From a virus, in IMG/VR virus record IMGVR_UViG_3300048694_000950, positions 1-51,985 of that record: DNA of 51,985 nt; one strand, written 5' to 3'. Positions 2,115-51,739 of the stretch are shown here, piece by piece. Under the pieces are notes generated by a model. The model did no database searches. It was not told the origin of the DNA and worked only from the letters and a program-made list of their open reading frames with translations. A program made the position numbers and the translations under genes. Each line of letters starts with the position of its first letter. The stretch's first letter is position 1.

Positions 2115-2776
2115 CATTCAAAGATGGCACGGTTTATAACCTAGAGGAAAACTTCCCTAGCAGTGCCCGCAGGGTTGCATTATCAATGTCTGGAGGCGTG
2201 GAATCCACGCTTCTTGCGTGCATTTTAGCGGAGCGTTACGGTAAGGATAATGTCTTGGTGTTTTCTGGCGAATACAAGGGACGTAGATGGTGGGAATCAA
2301 CACATCCAGCGTTCGTTTGTAAACAGCTAGGGATCAAACAGCACATACCTGTTCCACAGACGAATCACCATATGTCACCAAGTGATAATTGGGCAATGTT
2401 CTCCAGAGCCAGACAGTTGTATAATTTTGATTTATGGTTCAACGGAACAAACGCAAAGTTGTTTTCCGGACGCAATGTTACCGACAAAGACACAGTTGAA
2501 CGAATCAAGAAGCAAGGTTATCTTGTACCGTTTGTGTGGCTAGAGAAGTGGCAAACAATCGAGTTGTATTACCTACTCAAGCAGCCATCTCTTATTCAAT
2601 TGACGCACTCATGCACTGAGCAGCCACCGGAGAAGGGCCACTGTGGTAAGTGTTATTGCTGCCACGAACGCGCATGGGGGTTCCATGTTCTTGGAAAGAA
2701 AGATCCTACTACATACTGTATACCCTATGAGGAAGTAATTCTCAGCGCGGGGAAAAATATACAGGAGATGGTATGA
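2096..2776 (+). CDS. PP-loop ATPase, QueC-like (7-cyano-7-deazaguanine synthase family)
   Basis: 226 residues. The PP-loop SGGVES at residues 32-37 binds ATP. A C-terminal cysteine cluster (C173, C183, C186, C189, with CGKC then CCHER) resembles the zinc site of QueC, which makes preQ0 from CDG. In phages QueC can serve 7-deazaguanine DNA modification that blocks restriction. No folE, queD, queE or dpdA-like gene is in the window, so the pathway is unproven and another amidoligase-like role is possible. The start overlaps nrdB by 19 bases; no better in-frame start precedes the PP-loop. Confidence 0.65.
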   Translation: MGESSVTFKDGTVYNLEENFPSSARRVALSMSGGVESTLLACILAERYGKDNVLVFSGEYKGRRWWESTHPAFVCKQLGIKQHIPVPQTNHHMSPSDNWAMFSRARQLYNFDLWFNGTNAKLFSGRNVTDKDTVERIKKQGYLVPFVWLEKWQTIELYYLLKQPSLIQLTHSCTEQPPEKGHCGKCYCCHERAWGFHVLGKKDPTTYCIPYEEVILSAGKNIQEMV

Positions 2777-2958
2777 TAGAAAACGAAAACGATGCACCCC
2801 ATATTTGTTTTGAGTGTGATTCGGAATTCATTGTACATACACCATATGAATCAGACATGCAAGTTTCTTTCTGTCCGTTCTGCGGAAGTGAAGTTGAATT
2901 GACGGAAGAAGAGCTAGATGAAGAGGAAGATGGTCTGTTCGATGATGATTACAAATGA
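2773..2958 (+). CDS. Small acidic zinc-ribbon protein
   Basis: 61 residues with two cysteine pairs, CFEC near residue 13 and CPFC near residue 34, the spacing of a zinc ribbon. The C-terminal third is very acidic (runs of E and D). Start overlaps the previous stop (ATGA) and end overlaps the next start. Function unknown; a nucleic-acid or protein adaptor is possible. Confidence 0.7.
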   Translation: MIENENDAPHICFECDSEFIVHTPYESDMQVSFCPFCGSEVELTEEELDEEEDGLFDDDYK

Positions 2959-3350
2959 CATGGTTTTTCAAAGGCGAACCTTATGAACAACCATCAGAAG
3001 AGTATTACGGTTTTGTATACAGAATAACAAACCTCCAAACACAACGTGCCTACATTGGTAAAAAGTTGTTTTGGTTTAAGAAAACAAAGATACTCAAAGG
3101 CAAGAAGAAAAGATATCTTGCACCTTCTGATTGGAAAACATATTATGGTAGCTCAAAAGAAGTTCAACGAGATGTAGAGGCGCTGGGGATTGAGTCGTTC
3201 CGTAGAGATATAATTGTCCTTTGTAAAAACAAAGGTGAATGTTCTTATTACGAAGCAAAAGCGCAGTTCGATCATGCTGTTCTCTTGAACCCTGAAATGT
3301 ATTACAATGACTGGATTATTTGTCGTGTGCACAGAAAGCATATATTATGA
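2955..3350 (+). CDS. GIY-YIG-type endonuclease-like protein
   Basis: 131 residues. YGFVYRI followed by AYIGKK matches the GIY-YIG core, and YYGSS plus a downstream arginine fit the catalytic region. Free-standing GIY-YIG enzymes in T4-like phages are often homing or mobility nucleases, but this one sits inside a coupled operon (overlaps on both sides) and lacks an obvious target-recognition domain, so it may be a resident phage nuclease. Function beyond the fold is inferred. Confidence 0.7.
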   Translation: MTWFFKGEPYEQPSEEYYGFVYRITNLQTQRAYIGKKLFWFKKTKILKGKKKRYLAPSDWKTYYGSSKEVQRDVEALGIESFRRDIIVLCKNKGECSYYEAKAQFDHAVLLNPEMYYNDWIICRVHRKHIL

Positions 3351-39589: not shown

Positions 39590-39597
39590 TCTTGTTT

Positions 39598-40560
39598 ATG
39601 ATATACATTGAAAAACTGATTGTCGACCGTTCCTACTCTCCGGAACAATTCCTGCAGCAGATACCAGAAGACGCGTACAACCGTTCCTGGCCTCTAATAG
39701 TGTGCGGATTTCATTATGATGAAATAATCCACAAACAATCAATGAAGGACTTCTTTGATGGGCGGCCACGCATCAAGCCTTCGGCTGCGTTCCTATCGAG
39801 TATTGAATCGGTTGAGCGAGTGTGCGCTAAAGCACTAAAAATGAACGGAATGGTGCAGCTTGTATCCGCCGCATGCACATCAAGTGCATACGCAACATAC
39901 AATGCATACTGCCTCAGTGCAATGACTGGAACACCTGTTGTCATTGTTGGCGCGTCTCGGCTGCTACCAGAAGGATATGGCTGGTACTGGTTTAATTCTG
40001 TGAGAGCAATCGACGGTGATACTGGTATTCCATTCGATAAGAATAGTCGAGGGTTTCGTCCAGGAGAAGCTCAATTCTTTGCTGTAGTGTCAGCAAAGCC
40101 AATTAATCCAATTGCTGTTGTTGAGGATATGAGGTTTTTCTCGATTACGAGCCAATTTACAGATACAGGCTCGATAGAGCAAGTAGAGAAAAACCTCTTT
40201 GATGGGTTTGATATGCGAGACGTGTGTTGGTGGAATGCACACTCACCTGGAACGCCAATGGGTGATAGAGCAGAGCATACAATTTTCAATAATGTTGTTG
40301 GTGTAGGTGATATGCCGATATCCTCTTTGAAGGGAGAGATTGGCCATACATTGGTTGCCAGTTTTCTCGTGGAGACGGGGCTGGGGATACAATCCCTCAT
40401 GGATGGATATATACCCCCGAACACAGGAATCATCAATCCAATTGTCGATGATCCTCGTATCATTACAAAACCTGTAAGCACAACAGGTAAGACCTTCATT
40501 AAATTTAATATGGGATTTGGCGGAAAGAATGTATTGTCCCGTATTAAAGTGTATGGTTGA
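39598..40560 (+). CDS. Beta-ketoacyl-ACP synthase-like (ketosynthase) protein
   Basis: 320 residues from ATG 39598, shorter than FabF/FabB (about 410). The full catalytic triad of a decarboxylating ketosynthase is visible: C93 in AACTSS, H215 in NAHSPGTPMGD and H250 in KGEIGHTLVAS, with K245. A functional condensing enzyme is therefore likely; acyl substrate unknown. Such genes are very unusual in phages. It sits right after the DUF932 hairpin and its end overlaps the tmRNA promoter. No clear SD is seen. Confidence 0.75.
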   Translation: MIYIEKLIVDRSYSPEQFLQQIPEDAYNRSWPLIVCGFHYDEIIHKQSMKDFFDGRPRIKPSAAFLSSIESVERVCAKALKMNGMVQLVSAACTSSAYATYNAYCLSAMTGTPVVIVGASRLLPEGYGWYWFNSVRAIDGDTGIPFDKNSRGFRPGEAQFFAVVSAKPINPIAVVEDMRFFSITSQFTDTGSIEQVEKNLFDGFDMRDVCWWNAHSPGTPMGDRAEHTIFNNVVGVGDMPISSLKGEIGHTLVASFLVETGLGIQSLMDGYIPPNTGIINPIVDDPRIITKPVSTTGKTFIKFNMGFGGKNVLSRIKVYG

Positions 40561-40585
40561 TTAATCAATCGTATCGGTGTATGAT
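40557..40585 (+). promoter_or_regulatory. Sigma70-type promoter for the tmRNA
   Basis: TTGATT at 40557-40562, 17-bp spacer, TATGAT at 40580-40585; transcription should start near 40592, the expected start of the acceptor piece. Confidence 0.6.
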
Positions 40586-40591
40586 TTAGTT

Positions 40592-40914
40592 GTTATTGCT
40601 GTATGAAGCAAAGAGAAAAGTGTTCTGGACGGGAGTTCGATTCTCCCCACCTCCACCAAAAGCACATACATCGCTACTCACCTGAAATAGCGCGATGGTA
40701 CAGATGATAGTGGTGAAGTAATATCTGCTTAATGTGTGCTTTTGATGGGGGTGACTAGGTTTCGACAGGGCAAAGAGTAACAGAGTGGACAGCACGGTAG
40801 GCGATGACCGTAAATCAAGCAAAAACGTTAAACGCAAACGACGAAAAGTTCGCATTGGCAGCCTAAACGCTGACTAGGGTTTCGGTTGGTTTCCTCGTAA
40901 CAGAATAACCAACC
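40592..40914 (+). ncRNA. ssrA: Circularly permuted (two-piece) tmRNA gene
   Basis: Rescues stalled ribosomes. The 3' acceptor piece comes first: T-arm GGGAG-TTCGATT-CTCCC at 40631-40647, acceptor strand CACCTCC, A73 and encoded CCA ending at 40658. An intervening segment of 88 bases follows. The mature 5' end GGGGGTG then starts at 40747, followed by the conserved GGTTTCGACAGGG. The acceptor strands pair over seven bases and include G3-U70, the alanyl-tRNA synthetase identity element. The tag frame at 40834-40866 encodes ANDEKFALAA and a stop. The coding piece ends after a GGTTGGTT / AACCAACC hairpin. Exact outer ends are inferred. Confidence 0.92.
40659..40746 (+). other. Intervening segment of the permuted tmRNA precursor
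   Basis: The first and last bases of the segment, AAAAGCACA after the CCA and TGTGCTTTT before the mature 5' end, are complementary. They would stack on the acceptor stem and close a loop in the precursor, as in bacterial permuted tmRNAs whose segment is cut out by RNases. Confidence 0.75.
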
Positions 40915-40938
40915 ACTTTATTAACCGAGGAGTTTAAA

Positions 40939-41835
40939 TTGAAAAAAATCTTGTTTATGATAACAGCGTTGCTATTTGCTGTAGCCGTGCAAGCACAGCA
41001 GGTTGTTACTGTTTTGTGGCCTTTTAGTATTGGTTCAAACCAAGCAGCGTATGTCCGTTCAATTATTGAACAGGCAAACCAGCAACAAACAAAATATAAG
41101 TTTATACTAGAGAATAAGCCAGGAGCTGGTGGAACGATAGCAGCACGTGCTGTTCTTGCGAGCAATGAACTAACATTGATGAGCTCGTCAAGCAGCTTTT
41201 TTATCCGGCCAGTCTTGTATCCAAACGAAAGTTATAATGTAGACGATTTCAAGTCTGTCTACATTGAGTGTTTGGGTCAACCACTTGCTCTTGTTAGTAC
41301 CAAATACAAGAACATTTCCGATTTGAAAAAGCAAACACGCATTACAGTAGGCGTTATCCTTGGCAGCTTGACAGAAGGAGTAGCACGTGAGCTAGCCTCG
41401 CAACTACCTAACGTGACAGTCGATCTTATTCCCTACCCTGGTTCACTACAAGCAACACAGGATGTTATTGGTGGTCGTTTAGATGCGAGTGTTGATTTTG
41501 CTGGAGACGTGGTGCAGTGGATTGATACAGGGAAATTGTTTGCAATCGGTATCACGGGAACACGTAGCTTTACCAACTACGCTTCTTTTAAGAGTCAAGG
41601 TGTTGCAGGATTTGACGACCTGATTAGCAACTATCAGTTTATTGCACCAAAGACACTTTCTCCAACCGTGACGGAGGAATTGCACAACATATTTGCTAGT
41701 GCAGCAAAGACATCACCCACACTCAACGAACTTTACAAGCGTGATTTCTGCGCCGCTGCTGATGTTAATTTTAAACAGTCGGAAGTACTGTTTAATAAGT
41801 GGAAGACGTATTGGGCTAAGCAACTGTCAAAGTAA
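40939..41835 (+). CDS. TctC/Bug-type periplasmic solute-binding protein 1
   Basis: 298 residues from TTG 40939 with GAGGAG upstream. Signal peptide ending VQA-QQ, then the TctC pattern ENKPGAGGTIAARAV, GGRLDASVDFAGD. TctC receptors of tripartite tricarboxylate transporters deliver carboxylates to TctAB; the transporter itself is absent, so it would work with host TctAB or act as a decoy or sensor. Seven bases separate it from PP-loop ATPase 2. Confidence 0.8.
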   Translation: MKKILFMITALLFAVAVQAQQVVTVLWPFSIGSNQAAYVRSIIEQANQQQTKYKFILENKPGAGGTIAARAVLASNELTLMSSSSSFFIRPVLYPNESYNVDDFKSVYIECLGQPLALVSTKYKNISDLKKQTRITVGVILGSLTEGVARELASQLPNVTVDLIPYPGSLQATQDVIGGRLDASVDFAGDVVQWIDTGKLFAIGITGTRSFTNYASFKSQGVAGFDDLISNYQFIAPKTLSPTVTEELHNIFASAAKTSPTLNELYKRDFCAAADVNFKQSEVLFNKWKTYWAKQLSK

Positions 41836-41841
41836 AATGAA

Positions 41842-42981
41842 ATGGTAGAGAACCAATACGCGCTTGGCTACTATAAGGTTGGCCAACAAATATACACTTC
41901 AAAAATAGCCGCGTGTATTAAAGCAACAGAAGTAAAGCAAAATGTAAAGTGGTTTTTTAAGGATGAGGAGTTTGATGGATACGATTGGACAAAGGAGCCA
42001 TCTGATACTCTTGCAGTTCTTTACGAGCGCCGAGCTCGTGCAATTAGAGAGCGGTATGATTATGTTGTTTTGAGCTACAGCGGCGGGTCGGATTCTCACA
42101 ACATACTTGAAACATTCCTTAAACATGGATTGTTTATTGATGAGGTTCTTGTTAATACCTTTGAAAAAGCTAACAAGAAGATTGTAAATGATCCAAGTCA
42201 CACCAATGCCGAAAATTATGGTGCTGAATACAGACTACAAATATACCCGCGACTCGAGGAGTTAAGATTAAAATCGCCAGCAACAAAAATAACAATTGCT
42301 GATCAGAGTGATTTTATGATGAACGAGCTGCTGGCACCCTCAGCGAGTCCGGAATGGGTTGTAAAGCAGCGCGAAGTCCTCAATCCGTCTGGCATGTCAC
42401 GGTATAACTATCTTCATCAAAAGGAAGTCAGATTACGGGTTGATAAAAGTAAGAGTGTGTGTGTTATGCTTGGCGTGGAAAAACCAATTACTTTTTTTGA
42501 TACATCTAATCGGTATTACGTGTTGTTTGTGGACAGCGCAACCAACCTTGCTTCCGTTGATCCTCACTTCCATGAATATGATAACACGTCCGTTGAGTAT
42601 TTTTATTGGGGTGATGGGTGCGCAGACCTGATTGCCAAGCAATGTTTTGTAATTAAGCACTGGCTAGAAGCAAATCCACATTACAAACCGTTGTGGTTAT
42701 TTAAGAGTGGGCACCAGTACAAGCAGCACCTTGCTCTACGTCATGCGTTACTGCGAAACGTGCTGTATGACAACTGGAATTCTCAATGGTTTCAAGTTAC
42801 TAAAGGACGTTTGGATTGGTTTGATAGTATTGATGCTTGGTTCTATGCGTCTAATTATGAAGCGCAAAGGCAAACATGGGAACGAGGCATACAATATGTT
42901 CGTGACAAAGCGCATGCGTTTATTGAGGGGAACGGCCTCATGCCGTTTGGAAAGAAATTTTACATAGGAGATATGAAGTGA
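41842..42981 (+). CDS. PP-loop ATPase (asparagine-synthase-like), paralogue 2
   Basis: 379 residues. SGGSDS at residues 80-85 follows YDYVVLSY, and the region before it (DWTKEP, LYERRARAIRERYDY) is shared with the paralogues at 43901 and 46440. C-terminal ends also align (FYW...IAKQCFVIK). It lacks a glutamine amidotransferase domain. Tight spacing with TctC 1 and overlap with TctC 2 suggest a shared substrate. Confidence 0.7.
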   Translation: MVENQYALGYYKVGQQIYTSKIAACIKATEVKQNVKWFFKDEEFDGYDWTKEPSDTLAVLYERRARAIRERYDYVVLSYSGGSDSHNILETFLKHGLFIDEVLVNTFEKANKKIVNDPSHTNAENYGAEYRLQIYPRLEELRLKSPATKITIADQSDFMMNELLAPSASPEWVVKQREVLNPSGMSRYNYLHQKEVRLRVDKSKSVCVMLGVEKPITFFDTSNRYYVLFVDSATNLASVDPHFHEYDNTSVEYFYWGDGCADLIAKQCFVIKHWLEANPHYKPLWLFKSGHQYKQHLALRHALLRNVLYDNWNSQWFQVTKGRLDWFDSIDAWFYASNYEAQRQTWERGIQYVRDKAHAFIEGNGLMPFGKKFYIGDMK

Positions 42982-43904
42982 TTAGAATGATTATTGGGTT
43001 TGTCGCGGCGTTGCTGATGTGTGTATCTGCTTTTGCGCAAACACAAAGAGTGAGTGTAATGTGGCCGTTCACTCCGACAAGTACGCAAGCACTGTACACA
43101 AAACAAATTTTGTTTGAAGCAAACAAACTTCAAAACAAATATGAGTTTATCTTTGAACCAGCCGTGGGTGCTGGTGGTCTACTCAGTGTTCAGAAAACAC
43201 TCAAGGACAACAAGGATGGCCAGTTTGCACTACTAGCTCATACGAGTGCATTCTTTATTCGGCCAGTTCTCTACCCGAAAGATGCATACCTCGATCAATT
43301 CAAGCCTGTCATGTTGATTGCCAAATCAAACGCCGGTTTGGTAGTTGGAAAGCGATCTTTTGATGAGTTGATTGCGAGTAAAAAGATCTCGTTTGCAACA
43401 GCCGGCGCGGGATCACTGACGCATTTGTATGCGGAGCTGATTGTCAAGGAGTTAAAACGTCAAGGACGAGAAATCGACGCGGTGATGGTTCACTTTAAAA
43501 GTGCCCCAGATGCCTTCCTGGCAGTAGCCGGCGGCCATGCTGATGCAACGTTCGATTTTACCGGTAACATTGTTAGGGCTTCTTCGCCTCTAGTAAAGGT
43601 TGTTGGTGTTACGGGGAACGAAGCAACACTTGCTCCCACGCTTCGCAGTCTTGGTTATCCCGAAACTGGTAGCTTACAAAACATTTTTGCTTTTTATGCC
43701 ACTAACGATACACCACAATCAACCGTGAATGAAATTCAAGAGTTGTTTTTGAAGGCTGAAAAGGCCGAATCTGTACAAAAACTCTATCAAATAGATCATG
43801 CTACAAAAGAACCAAGATATGCACAGCCTGGCGACCTTAGCAATTGGTATCAACAAGCAGTAAAAGAGTTTGTACGCGCGGGAAAAGGAATTGTAGTCGA
43901 TTAA
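42978..43904 (+). CDS. TctC/Bug-type periplasmic solute-binding protein 2 (GTG start)
   Basis: 308 residues from GTG 42978; AGGAG lies eight bases upstream, favouring it over ATG 42987. Signal peptide ends SAFA-QT. WPFTPTST, AVGAGGLLSVQ and GGHADATFDF match paralogue 1. Overlaps the end of PP-loop ATPase 2. The stop is shared with the end of the convergent minus-strand gene. Confidence 0.8.
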   Translation: MIRMIIGFVAALLMCVSAFAQTQRVSVMWPFTPTSTQALYTKQILFEANKLQNKYEFIFEPAVGAGGLLSVQKTLKDNKDGQFALLAHTSAFFIRPVLYPKDAYLDQFKPVMLIAKSNAGLVVGKRSFDELIASKKISFATAGAGSLTHLYAELIVKELKRQGREIDAVMVHFKSAPDAFLAVAGGHADATFDFTGNIVRASSPLVKVVGVTGNEATLAPTLRSLGYPETGSLQNIFAFYATNDTPQSTVNEIQELFLKAEKAESVQKLYQIDHATKEPRYAQPGDLSNWYQQAVKEFVRAGKGIVVD

Positions 43905-49159: not shown

Positions 49160-49234
49160 ACACCGTTGGACTTTTGGTGAGGTCACAAGGCTTTCAACCT
49201 TGGCAGACGGGTTCGATCCCCGTACGGTGTACCA
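49160..49234 (+). tRNA. tRNA-Glu(TTC)
   Basis: Acceptor ACACCGT / ACGGTGT, anticodon arm CAAGG-CTTTCAA-CCTTG, T-arm ACGGG-TTCGATC-CCCGT, encoded CCA. Complete cloverleaf. Confidence 0.93.
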
Positions 49235-49356
49235 TTTGTTTTGTTGATTGTAAGCCATGGGCTTGATCATGCCTGCGTAACTGCGTACATAAACGGTAAG
49301 TCTAGCTAGCAATCCCGTTGAGCGACAGCAAATAGTGCAGTCAACAAAACAAATGG
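49232..49356 (+). ncRNA. Long-stem RNA element between tRNA-Glu and tRNA-Cys
   Basis: A perfect 16-bp stem joins CCATTTGTTTTGTTGA (which includes the CCA of tRNA-Glu) and 49341-49356. Inside are hairpins AAGCC / GGCTT and AACGG / CCGTT. The closing stem would hide the tRNA-Glu 3' end until processing. Confidence 0.6.
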
Positions 49357-49364
49357 AATTTTAT

Positions 49365-49441
49365 GTACGTGTGTAGCTGAATGGCGAGGCAAGGGATTGC
49401 AAATCCCCATCATGCAGGTTCGAGTCCTGTCACGTACTCCA
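49365..49441 (+). tRNA. tRNA-Cys(GCA)
   Basis: Acceptor GTACGTG / CACGTAC, T73, CCA; anticodon loop TTGCAAA between GGGA / TCCC; T-arm GCAGG-TTCGAGT-CCTGT. Confidence 0.9.
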
Positions 49442-49446
49442 GTTTT

Positions 49447-49511
49447 AGGATAGATTCAGCAAACTTTATAGCTAAACTTTTGGTTGTCTAGCGACAAAAA
49501 CTATCCTGTTG
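49447..49511 (+). ncRNA. tRNA-spacer RNA element A
   Basis: Stem AGGATAG / CTATCCT (7 bp) with ATTCAGCAA just inside and GTTG just after. The inner part folds GCTA / TAGC around AAC-TTTTG-GTT. CAGCA could pair with the tail TGTTG as a pseudoknot. First of the repeated family. Confidence 0.6.
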
Positions 49512-49516
49512 ATTTT

Positions 49517-49609
49517 GGAGGTCTTGATGCTAAGGCGTGTGCATCCCCGGACTGTAAATCCGGTCCCTCGTGGTAAACATTCGCGGTTCGACTCCGTGGA
49601 CCTCCACCA
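49517..49609 (+). tRNA. tRNA-Tyr(GTA)
   Basis: Acceptor GGAGGTC / GACCTCC, anticodon arm CCGGA-CTGTAAA-TCCGG, long class II variable arm, T-arm CGCGG-TTCGACT-CCGTG, encoded ACCA. Confidence 0.93.
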
Positions 49610-50106
49610 CAATCCCGTCTCCTCGACGTGATAGAGGCGTTGGTAGTACGATATGGCCCGGTGTCAGCATACCGTTAGCGAGCTAAACCTCAGAAACTGA
49701 TATGGTGTACCACACAACAGAAGAAGCAAATGTGGCGACAGGGTTGTAAACTCAAGTTGGGGCGAGGTGGAACCGTAGCCAACAACCTTACGCATGACAA
49801 TTAGGTCGTGAGATATGTGAAAGCTAGGGCCTCGAAATCCTAGTGAGTTGGGACTAATTATCCTAGTAGCAAACAAGTAGCGTTATCACTCGCTTACCCT
49901 AAGCAAAGGCAAGTTATCTGTAAAGGAGCTTGCTCGAGCACAGCCGCAGCCGGCATAATTTGCGGATAATGTGACCAATGTATGTGGTGGTCAAGGCTTA
50001 GTTGTCAGCCGTAAGGTTTTTTTGGTTCCAAAGTGTTCATGGACGCACACGACACTGTCACTGTCGAAGAAGGGGATCGTTACCCCTTGGGACCGCCAAG
50101 ATTTAT
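49610..50106 (+). ncRNA. About 500-nt structured non-coding RNA region (GOLLD/ROOL-like by context)
   Basis: No credible gene. Many local stems are visible: CCTC / GAGG at 49620, TTAGC / GCTAA at 49675, TCAG / CTGA at 49690, GGGTTGT / ACAACCT enclosing GTTGG / CCAAC (49740-49790), CTAGG / CCTAG at 49824, CCGCA / TGCGG at 49942, AAGGGG / CCCCTT at 50070. The last has loop ATCGTTA, the same as the T-loop of the adjacent tRNA-Ile. Position and size fit the giant phage RNAs, but I cannot match a named consensus. Confidence 0.55.
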
Positions 50107-50180
50107 ACCCCGTTAGCTCAAAGGTAGAGCACTCGACTGATAATCGAGCGACCGAGGATCGTTACCTCGACAGGGTACCA
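50107..50180 (+). tRNA. tRNA-Ile(GAT) with unusual T-loop
   Basis: Acceptor ACCCCGT / ACAGGGT (one C-A mismatch), D-arm AGCTCAAAGGTAGAGC, anticodon arm CTCGA-CTGATAA-TCGAG, encoded ACCA. The T-loop is ATCGTTA instead of the usual TTCGAnn: positions 54 and 58 are A and T instead of T and A. Confidence 0.88.
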
Positions 50181-50186
50181 GTTTAT

Positions 50187-50261
50187 GGGGGCAGCAGAGG
50201 GCTGCGGCGTTGCCTTGCAAGCATCGTGTCTAGAAGGGTTCGATACCCTCGGCCTCCACCA
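50187..50261 (+). tRNA. tRNA-Ala(TGC)
   Basis: Acceptor GGGGGCA / GGCCTCC with the G3-U70 wobble that AlaRS reads, anticodon loop CTTGCAA, T-loop TTCGATA, encoded ACCA. Confidence 0.88.
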
Positions 50262-50266
50262 GTTTT

Positions 50267-50325
50267 AGGATGCGTCCAGCAATTTAAAAAATTCAACTTG
50301 TAATTGAAAAATAAGCATCCTGTTG
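50267..50325 (+). ncRNA. tRNA-spacer RNA element B (Thr-type anticodon loop)
   Basis: Stem AGGATGC / GCATCCT, GTCCAGCAA inside, GTTG after. The single inner hairpin is TTCAA-CTTGTAA-TTGAA: a perfect 5-bp stem and 7-nt loop with anticodon TGT, as in tRNA-Thr. No D-arm or T-arm. Confidence 0.6.
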
Positions 50326-50330
50326 TTTTT

Positions 50331-50407
50331 GCCCTCTTACTCCAATTGGTAGAGAGGACGGTCTTAGAAGCCGTAAAGTCTCAGTTCGAATCTGAGAGAG
50401 GGCACCA
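50331..50407 (+). tRNA. tRNA with TAG anticodon (Leu), short variable loop
   Basis: Acceptor GCCCTCT / AGAGGGC, anticodon arm ACGGT-CTTAGAA-GCCGT, T-arm CTCAG-TTCGAAT-CTGAG, encoded ACCA. Anticodon TAG reads CTA (Leu), but it has a short class I variable loop; bacterial tRNA-Leu is class II. Confidence 0.85.
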
Positions 50408-50414
50408 GTTTTAT

Positions 50415-50489
50415 TCCAGTGTAGCACAGCGGTAGTGCAGTTGACTGTTAATCAATTGGTCGTTGGTTCGATCCCAGCCACTGGAGCCA
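50415..50489 (+). tRNA. tRNA-Asn(GTT)
   Basis: Acceptor TCCAGTG / CACTGGA, G73, CCA; anticodon arm GTTGA-CTGTTAA-TCAAT; T-loop TTCGATC. Confidence 0.93.
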
Positions 50490-50494
50490 GTTAT

Positions 50495-50551
50495 CCCGAC
50501 AAAAATATAATTCTGTTTAGAATTTATACTGCAATGTTAATGTCGGGGCCA
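50495..50551 (+). ncRNA. tRNA-spacer RNA element F (minihelix with encoded GCCA)
   Basis: Stem CCCGACA / TGTCGGG (7 bp) followed directly by GCCA, like an acceptor end with G73 and CCA. Only 39 bases lie between, with a hairpin AATTCTGTTTAGAATT. There is no CAGCAA box, so it is a different type from A-E. Confidence 0.5.
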
Positions 50552-50556
50552 TTTTT

Positions 50557-50632
50557 CTCCGTATAGCGTAATCTGGTAGCGTTCCTGATTTGGGGTCAGG
50601 CGGTAGGGGTTCAAATCCTCTTACGGAGACCA
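50557..50632 (+). tRNA. tRNA-Pro(TGG)
   Basis: Acceptor CTCCGTA / TACGGAG with C1-G72, A73, CCA; anticodon arm CCTGA-TTTGGGG-TCAGG; T-loop TTCAAAT. Confidence 0.9.
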
Positions 50633-50641
50633 GTTTTTATT

Positions 50642-50715
50642 CAGTGTGTATGATAGTGGTAGTCGCCGAGGTTTGGAACCTTGTAGTGGTGGTTCGATTC
50701 CACCCACGCTGACCA
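50642..50715 (+). tRNA. Second Pro-type tRNA (TGG)
   Basis: Acceptor CAGTGTG / CACGCTG, A73, CCA; anticodon arm CGAGG-TTTGGAA-CCTTG reads TGG; T-arm GTGGT/GTGG-TTCGATT-CCAC. C1-G72 and A73 fit Pro. A weak D-arm makes the isotype less sure. Confidence 0.75.
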
Positions 50716-50724
50716 GAGAGATTT

Positions 50725-50794
50725 AGAGTAGTTGCAGCAACAACTAAGATCACCAAACTGTTAATTTGTCCTGATCGACAAAGCTACTCTGTTG
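50725..50794 (+). ncRNA. tRNA-spacer RNA element C (Asn-type anticodon loop)
   Basis: Stem AGAGTAG / CTACTCT, TTGCAGCAA inside, GTTG after. The inner arm is GATCA / TGATC closing over CAAA-CTGTTAA-TTTG; the loop is the same as that of tRNA-Asn(GTT) at 50415. Confidence 0.6.
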
Positions 50795-50799
50795 TTTAT

Positions 50800-50875
50800 G
50801 CCCGCGAAGTATTAGCTGGTGGTACGCCGCCTTCGTAACGCGGAAGATTCAGTTCGAGGCTGAACGTGGGCACCA
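50800..50875 (+). tRNA. tRNA-Thr(CGT)
   Basis: Acceptor GCCCGCG / CGTGGGC, anticodon loop TTCGTAA between CCGC / GCGG, T-arm TTCAG-TTCGAGG-CTGAA, encoded ACCA. Confidence 0.85.
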
Positions 50876-50880
50876 TTTTT

Positions 50881-50976
50881 AGGATAGTTACAGCAACTTA
50901 AAGATCGCGATTGGTTCGCAATTTGTCTGAAAAACAAACTTAGCTGGTTCGAATCCAGTATCAATCTATCCTGTTA
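50881..50976 (+). ncRNA. tRNA-spacer RNA element D (Phe-like cloverleaf with expanded junction)
   Basis: Stem AGGATAG / CTATCCT with TTACAGCAA inside, GTTA after. It encloses a D-arm-like GCGA-TTGGT-TCGC, an anticodon arm TTTGT-CTGAAAA-ACAAA (GAA, Phe) and a T-arm GCTGG-TTCGAAT-CCAGT. About 16 extra bases separate acceptor and D-arm and six more follow the T-arm, and no CCA is encoded. Could be a tRNA-Phe with inserts, or a decoy. Confidence 0.5.
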
Positions 50977-50981
50977 GTTTT

Positions 50982-51075
50982 AGGTTACTTACAGCAAAAT
51001 AAAATTTGTAGGTTCGACTCCTACTTTTTCCGCATGGGAAGAAGCGCCAATGGTTGGCAAACCGGTAACCTGTTG
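50982..51075 (+). ncRNA. tRNA-spacer RNA element E (rearranged cloverleaf)
   Basis: Stem AGGTTAC / GTAACCT with TTACAGCAA inside, GTTG after. Inside, the order is T-arm GTAGG-TTCGACT-CCTAC, acceptor-like strand TTTTTCC, GCAT, acceptor-like strand GGGAAGA, then D-arm-like GCCAATGGTTGGC. That is the order expected of a circularly permuted tRNA. No anticodon arm is evident. Confidence 0.5.
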
Positions 51076-51082
51076 TATATGT

Positions 51083-51157
51083 TGGGGGTAAATCGATTGG
51101 AGCAGATACTTGGCTTTGACCCAAGGTGAGTGAGTTCGATTCTCACACCCCCTACCA
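51083..51157 (+). tRNA. tRNA-Gln(TTG)
   Basis: Acceptor TGGGGGT / ACCCCCT with an unpaired U1-U72 (GlnRS prefers a weak first pair), anticodon arm CTTGG-CTTTGAC-CCAAG, T-arm GTGAG-TTCGATT-CTCAC, encoded ACCA. Confidence 0.9.
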
Positions 51158-51173
51158 AATTGAAAGGCATGCT

Positions 51174-51380
51174 ATGTGGTATGTTAAAGATAATACTGGC
51201 TTTGTCAGAGGCAAGGCTGGTAATCTGAGCTTGGCTATGGAAATGGCTAAGTATATTGACGAGTTTGTAGTTATTACAGATGGTGTCACAGAAATTGTTG
51301 GATTGTTTGGTGTGGACAGTATTGTTGACCAAACGTGTCCTGATGGTGTAGAATACTCTTGGAAGAAACGGAGACCGTAA
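51174..51380 (+). CDS. Hypothetical small protein inside the tRNA array
   Basis: 68 residues from ATG 51174 with GAAAGG seven bases upstream; a frame extension into tRNA-Gln is not credible. Alpha/beta pattern (AKYIDEFVVITDGVTEIVGL). No family recognised. Confidence 0.6.
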   Translation: MWYVKDNTGFVRGKAGNLSLAMEMAKYIDEFVVITDGVTEIVGLFGVDSIVDQTCPDGVEYSWKKRRP

Positions 51381-51511
51381 TGGCAAACGTGAAACAAGGT
51401 AACTTGGTGCGACCACCTCAATGGTGGAAGCATCTAAAAGATTTCAAACGAGTGTTTTGGAAAAGCGAGCGTCAAGCTCATAAAAAGGAAATTAAAAATG
51501 AAACTAGGTAA
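51380..51511 (+). CDS. Hypothetical 43-residue basic protein
   Basis: ATG 51380 on a TAATG overlap with the previous gene. Very basic and Trp-containing (VRPPQWWKHLKDFKRVFW). Possibly an RNA-binding peptide; unproven. Confidence 0.5.
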   Translation: MANVKQGNLVRPPQWWKHLKDFKRVFWKSERQAHKKEIKNETR

Positions 51512-51580
51512 ACCCTAGTGTCATCTTAGGCCCCGTATTGGTCTCGGATGGCACGTAAAATCAAATTAATTACGATCCAT

Positions 51581-51657
51581 CCCTTGCTGGCGTTAACGGT
51601 TAGCGTACCGGACTCTTAATCCGCGAGGTCTCAGTTCGAATCTGAGGCAAGGGACCA
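51581..51657 (+). tRNA. tRNA-Lys(CTT)
   Basis: Acceptor CCCTTGC / GCAAGGG, anticodon loop CTCTTAA between CGGA / TCCG, T-arm CTCAG-TTCGAAT-CTGAG, encoded ACCA. A hairpin GGATGG / CCATCC lies directly upstream. Confidence 0.88.
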
Positions 51658-51662
51658 ATATG

Positions 51663-51739
51663 GGGCTGATAGTTTAATGGCTAAAACATCCGGCTTTTAA
51701 CCGGTAAGAGTCAGGGTTCGAATCCCTGTCGGCCCACCA
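51663..51739 (+). tRNA. tRNA-Lys(TTT)
   Basis: Acceptor GGGCTGA / TCGGCCC, anticodon arm CCGG-CTTTTAA-CCGG, T-arm CAGGG-TTCGAAT-CCCTG, encoded ACCA. Confidence 0.9.

Follow-up and report, generated by a model that had tools for sequence, protein, structure and literature searches.

A permuted tmRNA gene in a T4-like phage genome fragment

The window, meaning the whole stretch of 51,985 nt analyzed here, is a linear IMG/VR virus record (IMGVR_UViG_3300048694_000950) and a genome fragment. Its genes include those for ribonucleotide reductase, T4 RNase H, PhoH, a PDDEXK nuclease, and a DUF932 protein, and these sequences point to a T4-like phage with the Methylophilales phage Melnitz as its closest named relative (DUF932 58% and RNase H 49% identical). 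The viral origin given in an earlier note on this DNA is therefore supported by the record and by the gene set. The features of the locus, all on the + strand, are as follows.

39592-40560, +, ketoacyl-synthase-like protein, upstream neighbor, syntenic with the related loci L131 and L132
40557-40585, +, probable sigma-70 promoter TTGATT-17-TATGAT, about 8-9 nt upstream of the acceptor piece
40593-40658, +, acceptor piece of the tmRNA, 5' helix strands to CCA (direct reading, ARAGORN, Rfam; pairing and covariation)
40621-40627, +, P2a left strand, in the acceptor piece
40631-40647, +, T-arm (T-stem strands 40631-40635/40643-40647)
40648-40654, +, acceptor 3' strand CACCTCC (direct reading)
40655, +, A, followed by the encoded CCA at 40656-40658, + (direct reading)
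40659-40746, +, spacer (intervening segment) of 88 nt, predicted to be excised (stem covariation, fold)
40747-40915, +, coding piece (direct reading, ARAGORN, Rfam, covariation)
40747-40753, +, acceptor 5' strand GGGGGTG (direct reading)
40761-40766, +, TTCGAC box (direct reading)
40766-40772, +, P2a right strand, in the coding piece
40834-40866, +, tag frame GCAAACGACGAAAAGTTCGCATTGGCAGCCTAA, encoding ANDEKFALAA and a stop (ARAGORN, direct reading)
40887-40917, +, 3' hairpin GTTGG/CCAAC with loop TTCCTCGTAACAGAATAA (covaries in relatives)
40939-41835, +, TctC-family substrate-binding protein, downstream neighbor
49160-51739, +, downstream array of 13 predicted tRNA genes, also found 3' of the tmRNA in L131 and L132

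The earlier note had read a two-piece tmRNA here from an acceptor half with encoded CCA upstream of the tag half, a tag ANDEKFALAA, a G3-U70 pair, and a TTCGAC box, and each of these was recovered: the CCA precedes GGGGGTG, the tag is read directly and is also called by ARAGORN, the G3-U70 pair lies at 40749-40652, and the box is at the position listed above. The predicted products, about 66 nt (40593-40658) and 169 nt (40747 to about 40915), agree with the 65 and 170 bases that it expected.

The gene matches beta-type models

The locus scored 142.7 bits against Rfam RF04321 tmRNA_permuted (cut-off 47; 40597-40866, + strand) and 133.8 bits, E 1e-40, against RF01850 beta_tmRNA (gathering cut-off 84; 40543-40920, + strand), and ARAGORN predicted a permuted tmRNA at 40566-40957 with the tag ANDEKFALAA*. 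Within clan CL00001, the top-scoring model was beta, ahead of alpha and cyano. The check proposed in the earlier note was a significant beta_tmRNA match with the same break, and such a match was obtained; together with the covariation in relatives described below, the model matches bear out its reading of a phage-encoded, permuted tmRNA of beta type.

The permuted order, the acceptor and T-arm sequences, G3-U70, the tag frame, and the 3' hairpin are common to the window gene and the betaproteobacterial two-piece tmRNAs of RF01850/RF04321. The window gene differs from them in being phage borne, in lacking the terminator hairpin of the beta_tmRNA model, and in having a spacer of 88 nt rather than a short loop (the gap in the model alignment is 77 nt vs 18 unshown positions). 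In the beta_tmRNA alignment, the inner P2 pairs are partly mismatched. A standard one-piece tmRNA (RF00023) was ruled out, because the acceptor/CCA and tag halves are in reversed order. No second or partial tmRNA copy was found within the window.

RNA structure is conserved among relatives

Viral contigs were scanned by pattern, and ARAGORN called at least 163 permuted tmRNAs among the 244 loci fetched; such scans select for the pattern, so these counts are not frequencies. The covariation test used 108 distinct permuted tmRNA sequences; almost all came from viral contigs, and phage or plasmid records supplied a few. Because this set holds few bacterial copies, the constraint described here acts in phages. 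Pairing was scored at constant distances from the CCA and TTCGA landmarks, without an alignment fitted to a structure; slid controls correct for relatedness, whereas shuffled controls do not.

The acceptor stem and the T-stem were both 100% paired, and G3-U70 was kept in 108 of 108 sequences. P2a, which spans both pieces, was 97.9% paired (shuffled 73%, slid 40-58%) with two-sided changes at all 7 of its pairs. In the spacer stem, pairing reached 89.9% vs 60% in shuffled controls, and all 9 pairs showed two-sided changes. The stem of the 3' hairpin also covaries, and its loop is nearly invariant among relatives. L131 and L132 provide an example of compensation: their acceptor stem is GGGCCTG/CAGGTCC, against GGGGGTG/CACCTCC in the window, with pairs 4 and 5 C-G instead of G-C and G3-U70 retained. 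For a coding-piece pseudoknot, a partner strand for the 3' hairpin loop could not be shown. One candidate, CCTCG (40893-40897) with CGAGG (40926-40930), would have buried the tctC ribosome-binding site; it was not supported, since L030 (IMGVR_UViG_3300047557_003004) and other relatives lack the CGAGG strand.

The spacer is predicted to fold with the acceptor stem

The ends of the spacer are complementary (AAAGCACA.../...TGTGTGCTTTTGAT), and the acceptor stem and spacer together give one long predicted hairpin of -43.2 kcal/mol (z = -6.5), a value matched by 0 of 200 shuffled sequences. The complementary ends of the intervening segment, pointed out in the earlier note, are thus real by both the hairpin score and the stem covariation. 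Among relatives, the spacer sequence varies freely and the stem alone is kept, as expected of a processing signal. The only open reading frame (ORF) in the window's own spacer is an 8-codon frame without a Shine-Dalgarno sequence, which was rejected as a gene, and no further Rfam family was found within the spacer.

Promoter and 3' flank

A consensus promoter scan of the window alone performed at chance level (2 found vs 2.0 expected). Scored out of 12 against TTGACA-16/18-TATAAT, the window promoter reaches 9/12, a score seen at 4.6% of control positions; at the homologous position in relatives, a score of at least 10/12 was found in 41 of 95 distinct sequences, vs 1.3% of 1510 control positions. 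The promoter of the earlier note therefore stands in its position, which matches these near-consensus promoters, whereas taken alone the window sequence is no better than chance. No terminator was found between the tmRNA and tctC, and the tctC ribosome-binding site lies directly 3' of the tmRNA; transcription would therefore be likely to read through into tctC. The tctC gene (40939-41835) has a companion at 42978-43904, and this phage window thus encodes two periplasmic binding proteins of the TctC (tripartite tricarboxylate transporter) family. Compared with 50,697 phage records, the first gave no match; in IMG/VR it has one relative (L130, 50% identity).

Two-piece tmRNAs of other phages

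The two-piece tmRNA of phage Melnitz was published in 2022 (PMC9004378), and 53 ARAGORN-predicted two-piece tmRNAs, 50 of them aquatic, have been reported from 18,146 phage genomes (PMC9004378). A tmRNA database holds 79 phage tmRNAs (PMC11915505), and well over 100 permuted tmRNAs like that of the window are present in IMG/VR. The earlier note had implied that a phage two-piece tmRNA is a rarity; given the published cases and the abundance in IMG/VR, that claim to novelty fails. The window gene is a clear beta-type addition to the known phage two-piece tmRNAs. Such genes occur frequently among uncultured phages, and many have a sigma-70 promoter of their own; this makes the use of trans-translation during takeover, in keeping ribosomes free, open to test.

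The Melnitz tmRNA (MZ577097.1 45984-46436) is likewise permuted and borne by a related T4-like phage. It is, however, alpha-type (RF01849), bears a 3'-terminal glutamine riboswitch, and follows PhoH and PDDEXK genes, whereas the beta-type gene of the window lies between the ketoacyl-synthase-like gene and tctC. The tmRNA of S-CAM3 is cyano-type, unlike that of the window. Alcaligenes phage vB_Af_QDWS595 (OK149171.2, Schitoviridae) has a beta-type permuted tmRNA (93.8 bits) that is unannotated in its record; this phage is a podovirus, the tag is ANDNVYAAAA, and the gene is embedded among tRNA genes. An unannotated two-piece tmRNA was also found in Xanthomonas phage Rb1. The Cupriavidus plasmid NZ_CP017753.1 (L129 1871-2188) carries a beta-type permuted tmRNA with the tag ANDKRFALAA, which scored 231.7 bits, at a position where no gene is listed.

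Possible exchange of the tmRNA between phages

The order DUF932, ketoacyl-synthase-like gene, tmRNA, tRNA array is common to the window, L131, and L132. DUF932 is 83-86% identical between the window and these two relatives and the ketoacyl-synthase-like protein 45%, but in the functional pieces the tmRNAs of L131 and L132 share just 63-70% identity with that of the window. The tmRNA of L030 also encodes ANDEKFALAA and is 94.5% identical over 329 nt, but its neighborhood differs (PhoH, PDDEXK). Because the window locus is syntenic with L131/L132 while its tmRNA is nearest to that of L030, the sequences suggest that the tmRNA at a fixed locus was replaced by phage-to-phage exchange, which is the simplest reading. 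To look for the host, bacterial genomes were searched for exact matches to the acceptor piece; the one match lay in a Patescibacteria bin whose own tmRNA is one-piece, and it is uninformative.

L030 also contains an additional, broken copy of the 5' half of the acceptor piece (2626-2673), which is closer to the window sequence than to the intact tmRNA of L030 itself and adjoins an HNH endonuclease-like gene (2674-3225, - strand). We read this as an apparent mobile insertion in the tmRNA gene, which would have supplied a new 5' half in place of the old one.

Proposed processing and function

On the basis of the sequence comparisons above, the window gene is very probably a complete, working beta-type circularly permuted tmRNA of a T4-like phage. 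We infer its processing and function as follows. One precursor would be transcribed from the sigma-70-like promoter, and the spacer stem would stack on the acceptor stem in a long hairpin that presents both cut sites. The 88-nt spacer would then be removed by tRNA-processing nucleases, RNase P at G1 and a 3' nuclease at CCA, and the acceptor stem and P2 would hold the two pieces together after cutting. Host AlaRS would charge the two-piece RNA, which would be delivered to stalled ribosomes in a SmpB-dependent manner; no smpB gene was found in the window, a linear fragment, or in Melnitz, so host SmpB would be needed. The ANDEKFALAA tag, a ClpXP-type degron, would direct the product to host proteases. 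The most likely benefit to the phage, a proposal held with clearly less confidence than the integrity of the gene, would be that ribosomes are kept free while host mRNA breaks down in infection. For another role offered in the earlier note, replacement of a lost host tmRNA, the analysis gave no evidence.

It is very unlikely that the phage RNA counters the host tmRNA, competing for SmpB and AlaRS instead of rescuing ribosomes. A passage of PMC11915505 describes a tag-less tmRNA-like RNA of phage DS6A that inhibits host tmRNA in E. coli, but a pure inhibitor would not need the complete ALAA-ending tag frame of the window, and this frame is kept in relatives while its inner residues vary. A recently captured host tmRNA or a decaying relic without function for the phage is very unlikely: all functional elements are intact in the window, the helices covary across many divergent phage copies, promoters are kept, and the nearest relatives are viral contigs and not bacterial genomes. 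The family is bacterial in origin, given the higher beta_tmRNA score of the Cupriavidus plasmid copy (231.7 bits vs 133.8 in the window), and the dead 5' half copy in L030 shows that relics occur.

An uncut precursor that functions as a permuted RNA in one piece is extremely unlikely; the spacer is long and strongly structured, yet its sequence varies and only the stem is kept, as for a processing signal, and a passage of PMC9004378 describes cleavage into two pieces for known permuted tmRNAs, as in Caulobacter. Since tmRNA genes are well-known integration sites (PMC9004378), an attachment site, or a copy restored after integration into host ssrA, was also considered. This is barely credible here, because the window has a complete gene, served by its own promoter, and no end fragment, the gene occupies a syntenic interior position in L131 and L132, the gene set is that of a virulent T4-like phage, and no integrase, tyrosine integrases included, was found in the window or in Melnitz.

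Small protein genes are nested in the spacers of relatives

Some relatives carry ORFs within the spacer. In 11 of 110 distinct spacers, an ORF of 18 codons or more follows a Shine-Dalgarno sequence and starts no more than 30 nt from the CCA, compared with a mean of 1.6 and a maximum of 5 in 50 resampled control sets. Many of these ORFs stop at the TGA of a conserved TGAT preceding GGGGGTG; the TGAT is conserved for pairing with ACCA, so stop position alone is weak evidence. Between homologues, pN/pS was 0.07-0.38 in the ORF frame and, wherever it is defined, 0.41-4.8 in the remaining two frames, and by this sequence measure some spacer ORFs are under purifying selection.

One family consists of membrane proteins of 38-41 aa with the consensus MSNLILxLLIIVLHxYWVYKLVTYDWSNFEEDQ.... 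A protein search with this family alone returned 16 contigs, and in 15 of them ARAGORN called a permuted tmRNA at the same place. The ORF lies within the spacer in 7 of these and just upstream of the tmRNA in 8; the sixteenth contig ends in an apparent tmRNA start. The nested and adjacent genes are located as follows.

38-41-aa family, inside the spacer: L141 370-495, L192 5281-5406, L200 3512-3637; L245, L246, L254-L257, L259
38-41-aa family, just upstream of the tmRNA: L055 4233-4118 (-), L247-L249, L251-L253, L258, L260
Other nested mini-ORFs: L074 2675-2746 (-), L077 3848-3934, L096 6819-6977 (-), L146 8589-8657 (-), L164 1190-1267, L173 2166-2330, L185 3607-3702, L137 4320-4424, L025 2281-2457, L117 7101-7274 (-), Melnitz L126 46096-46260

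The other mini-ORFs are unrelated and encode 22-58 aa; many products are hydrophobic and some cysteine rich, and in most the Shine-Dalgarno sequence lies just 3' of the CCA. The L074 mini-ORF has a free-standing homologue directly upstream of the tmRNA in L164, L195, and L208. A Pfam search of the nested mini-proteins gave no significant match; those of L117 and L025 may resemble BFD-like [2Fe-2S] domains.

We consider it reasonably probable that in this group of phages the excised spacer is a cargo site for small protein genes, where tmRNA and protein output may compete on one transcript, and, as part of the same reading, that the window spacer is an ORF-less allele of this site. If so, with small protein genes nested in a removable spacer, the permuted gene form would have gained a new use, one that is newer than the finding of the window tmRNA itself; a literature search for reading frames within the intervening segments of tmRNAs turned up no relevant paper, which speaks weakly for novelty.

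Two further observations concern spacer sequence. The spacers of L013, L133, L144, L172, L181, and L221 look unrelated, with the exception of a shared motif like GACGAACCAG..GGTAGCAAACA..GTGGC; no Rfam family matched it in the three scanned (L133, L144, and L172), and it may be a structured RNA. The window spacer (40659-40746) is 98.9% identical to that of L030 (4109-4196), while the functional pieces and flanks are only about 85% identical.
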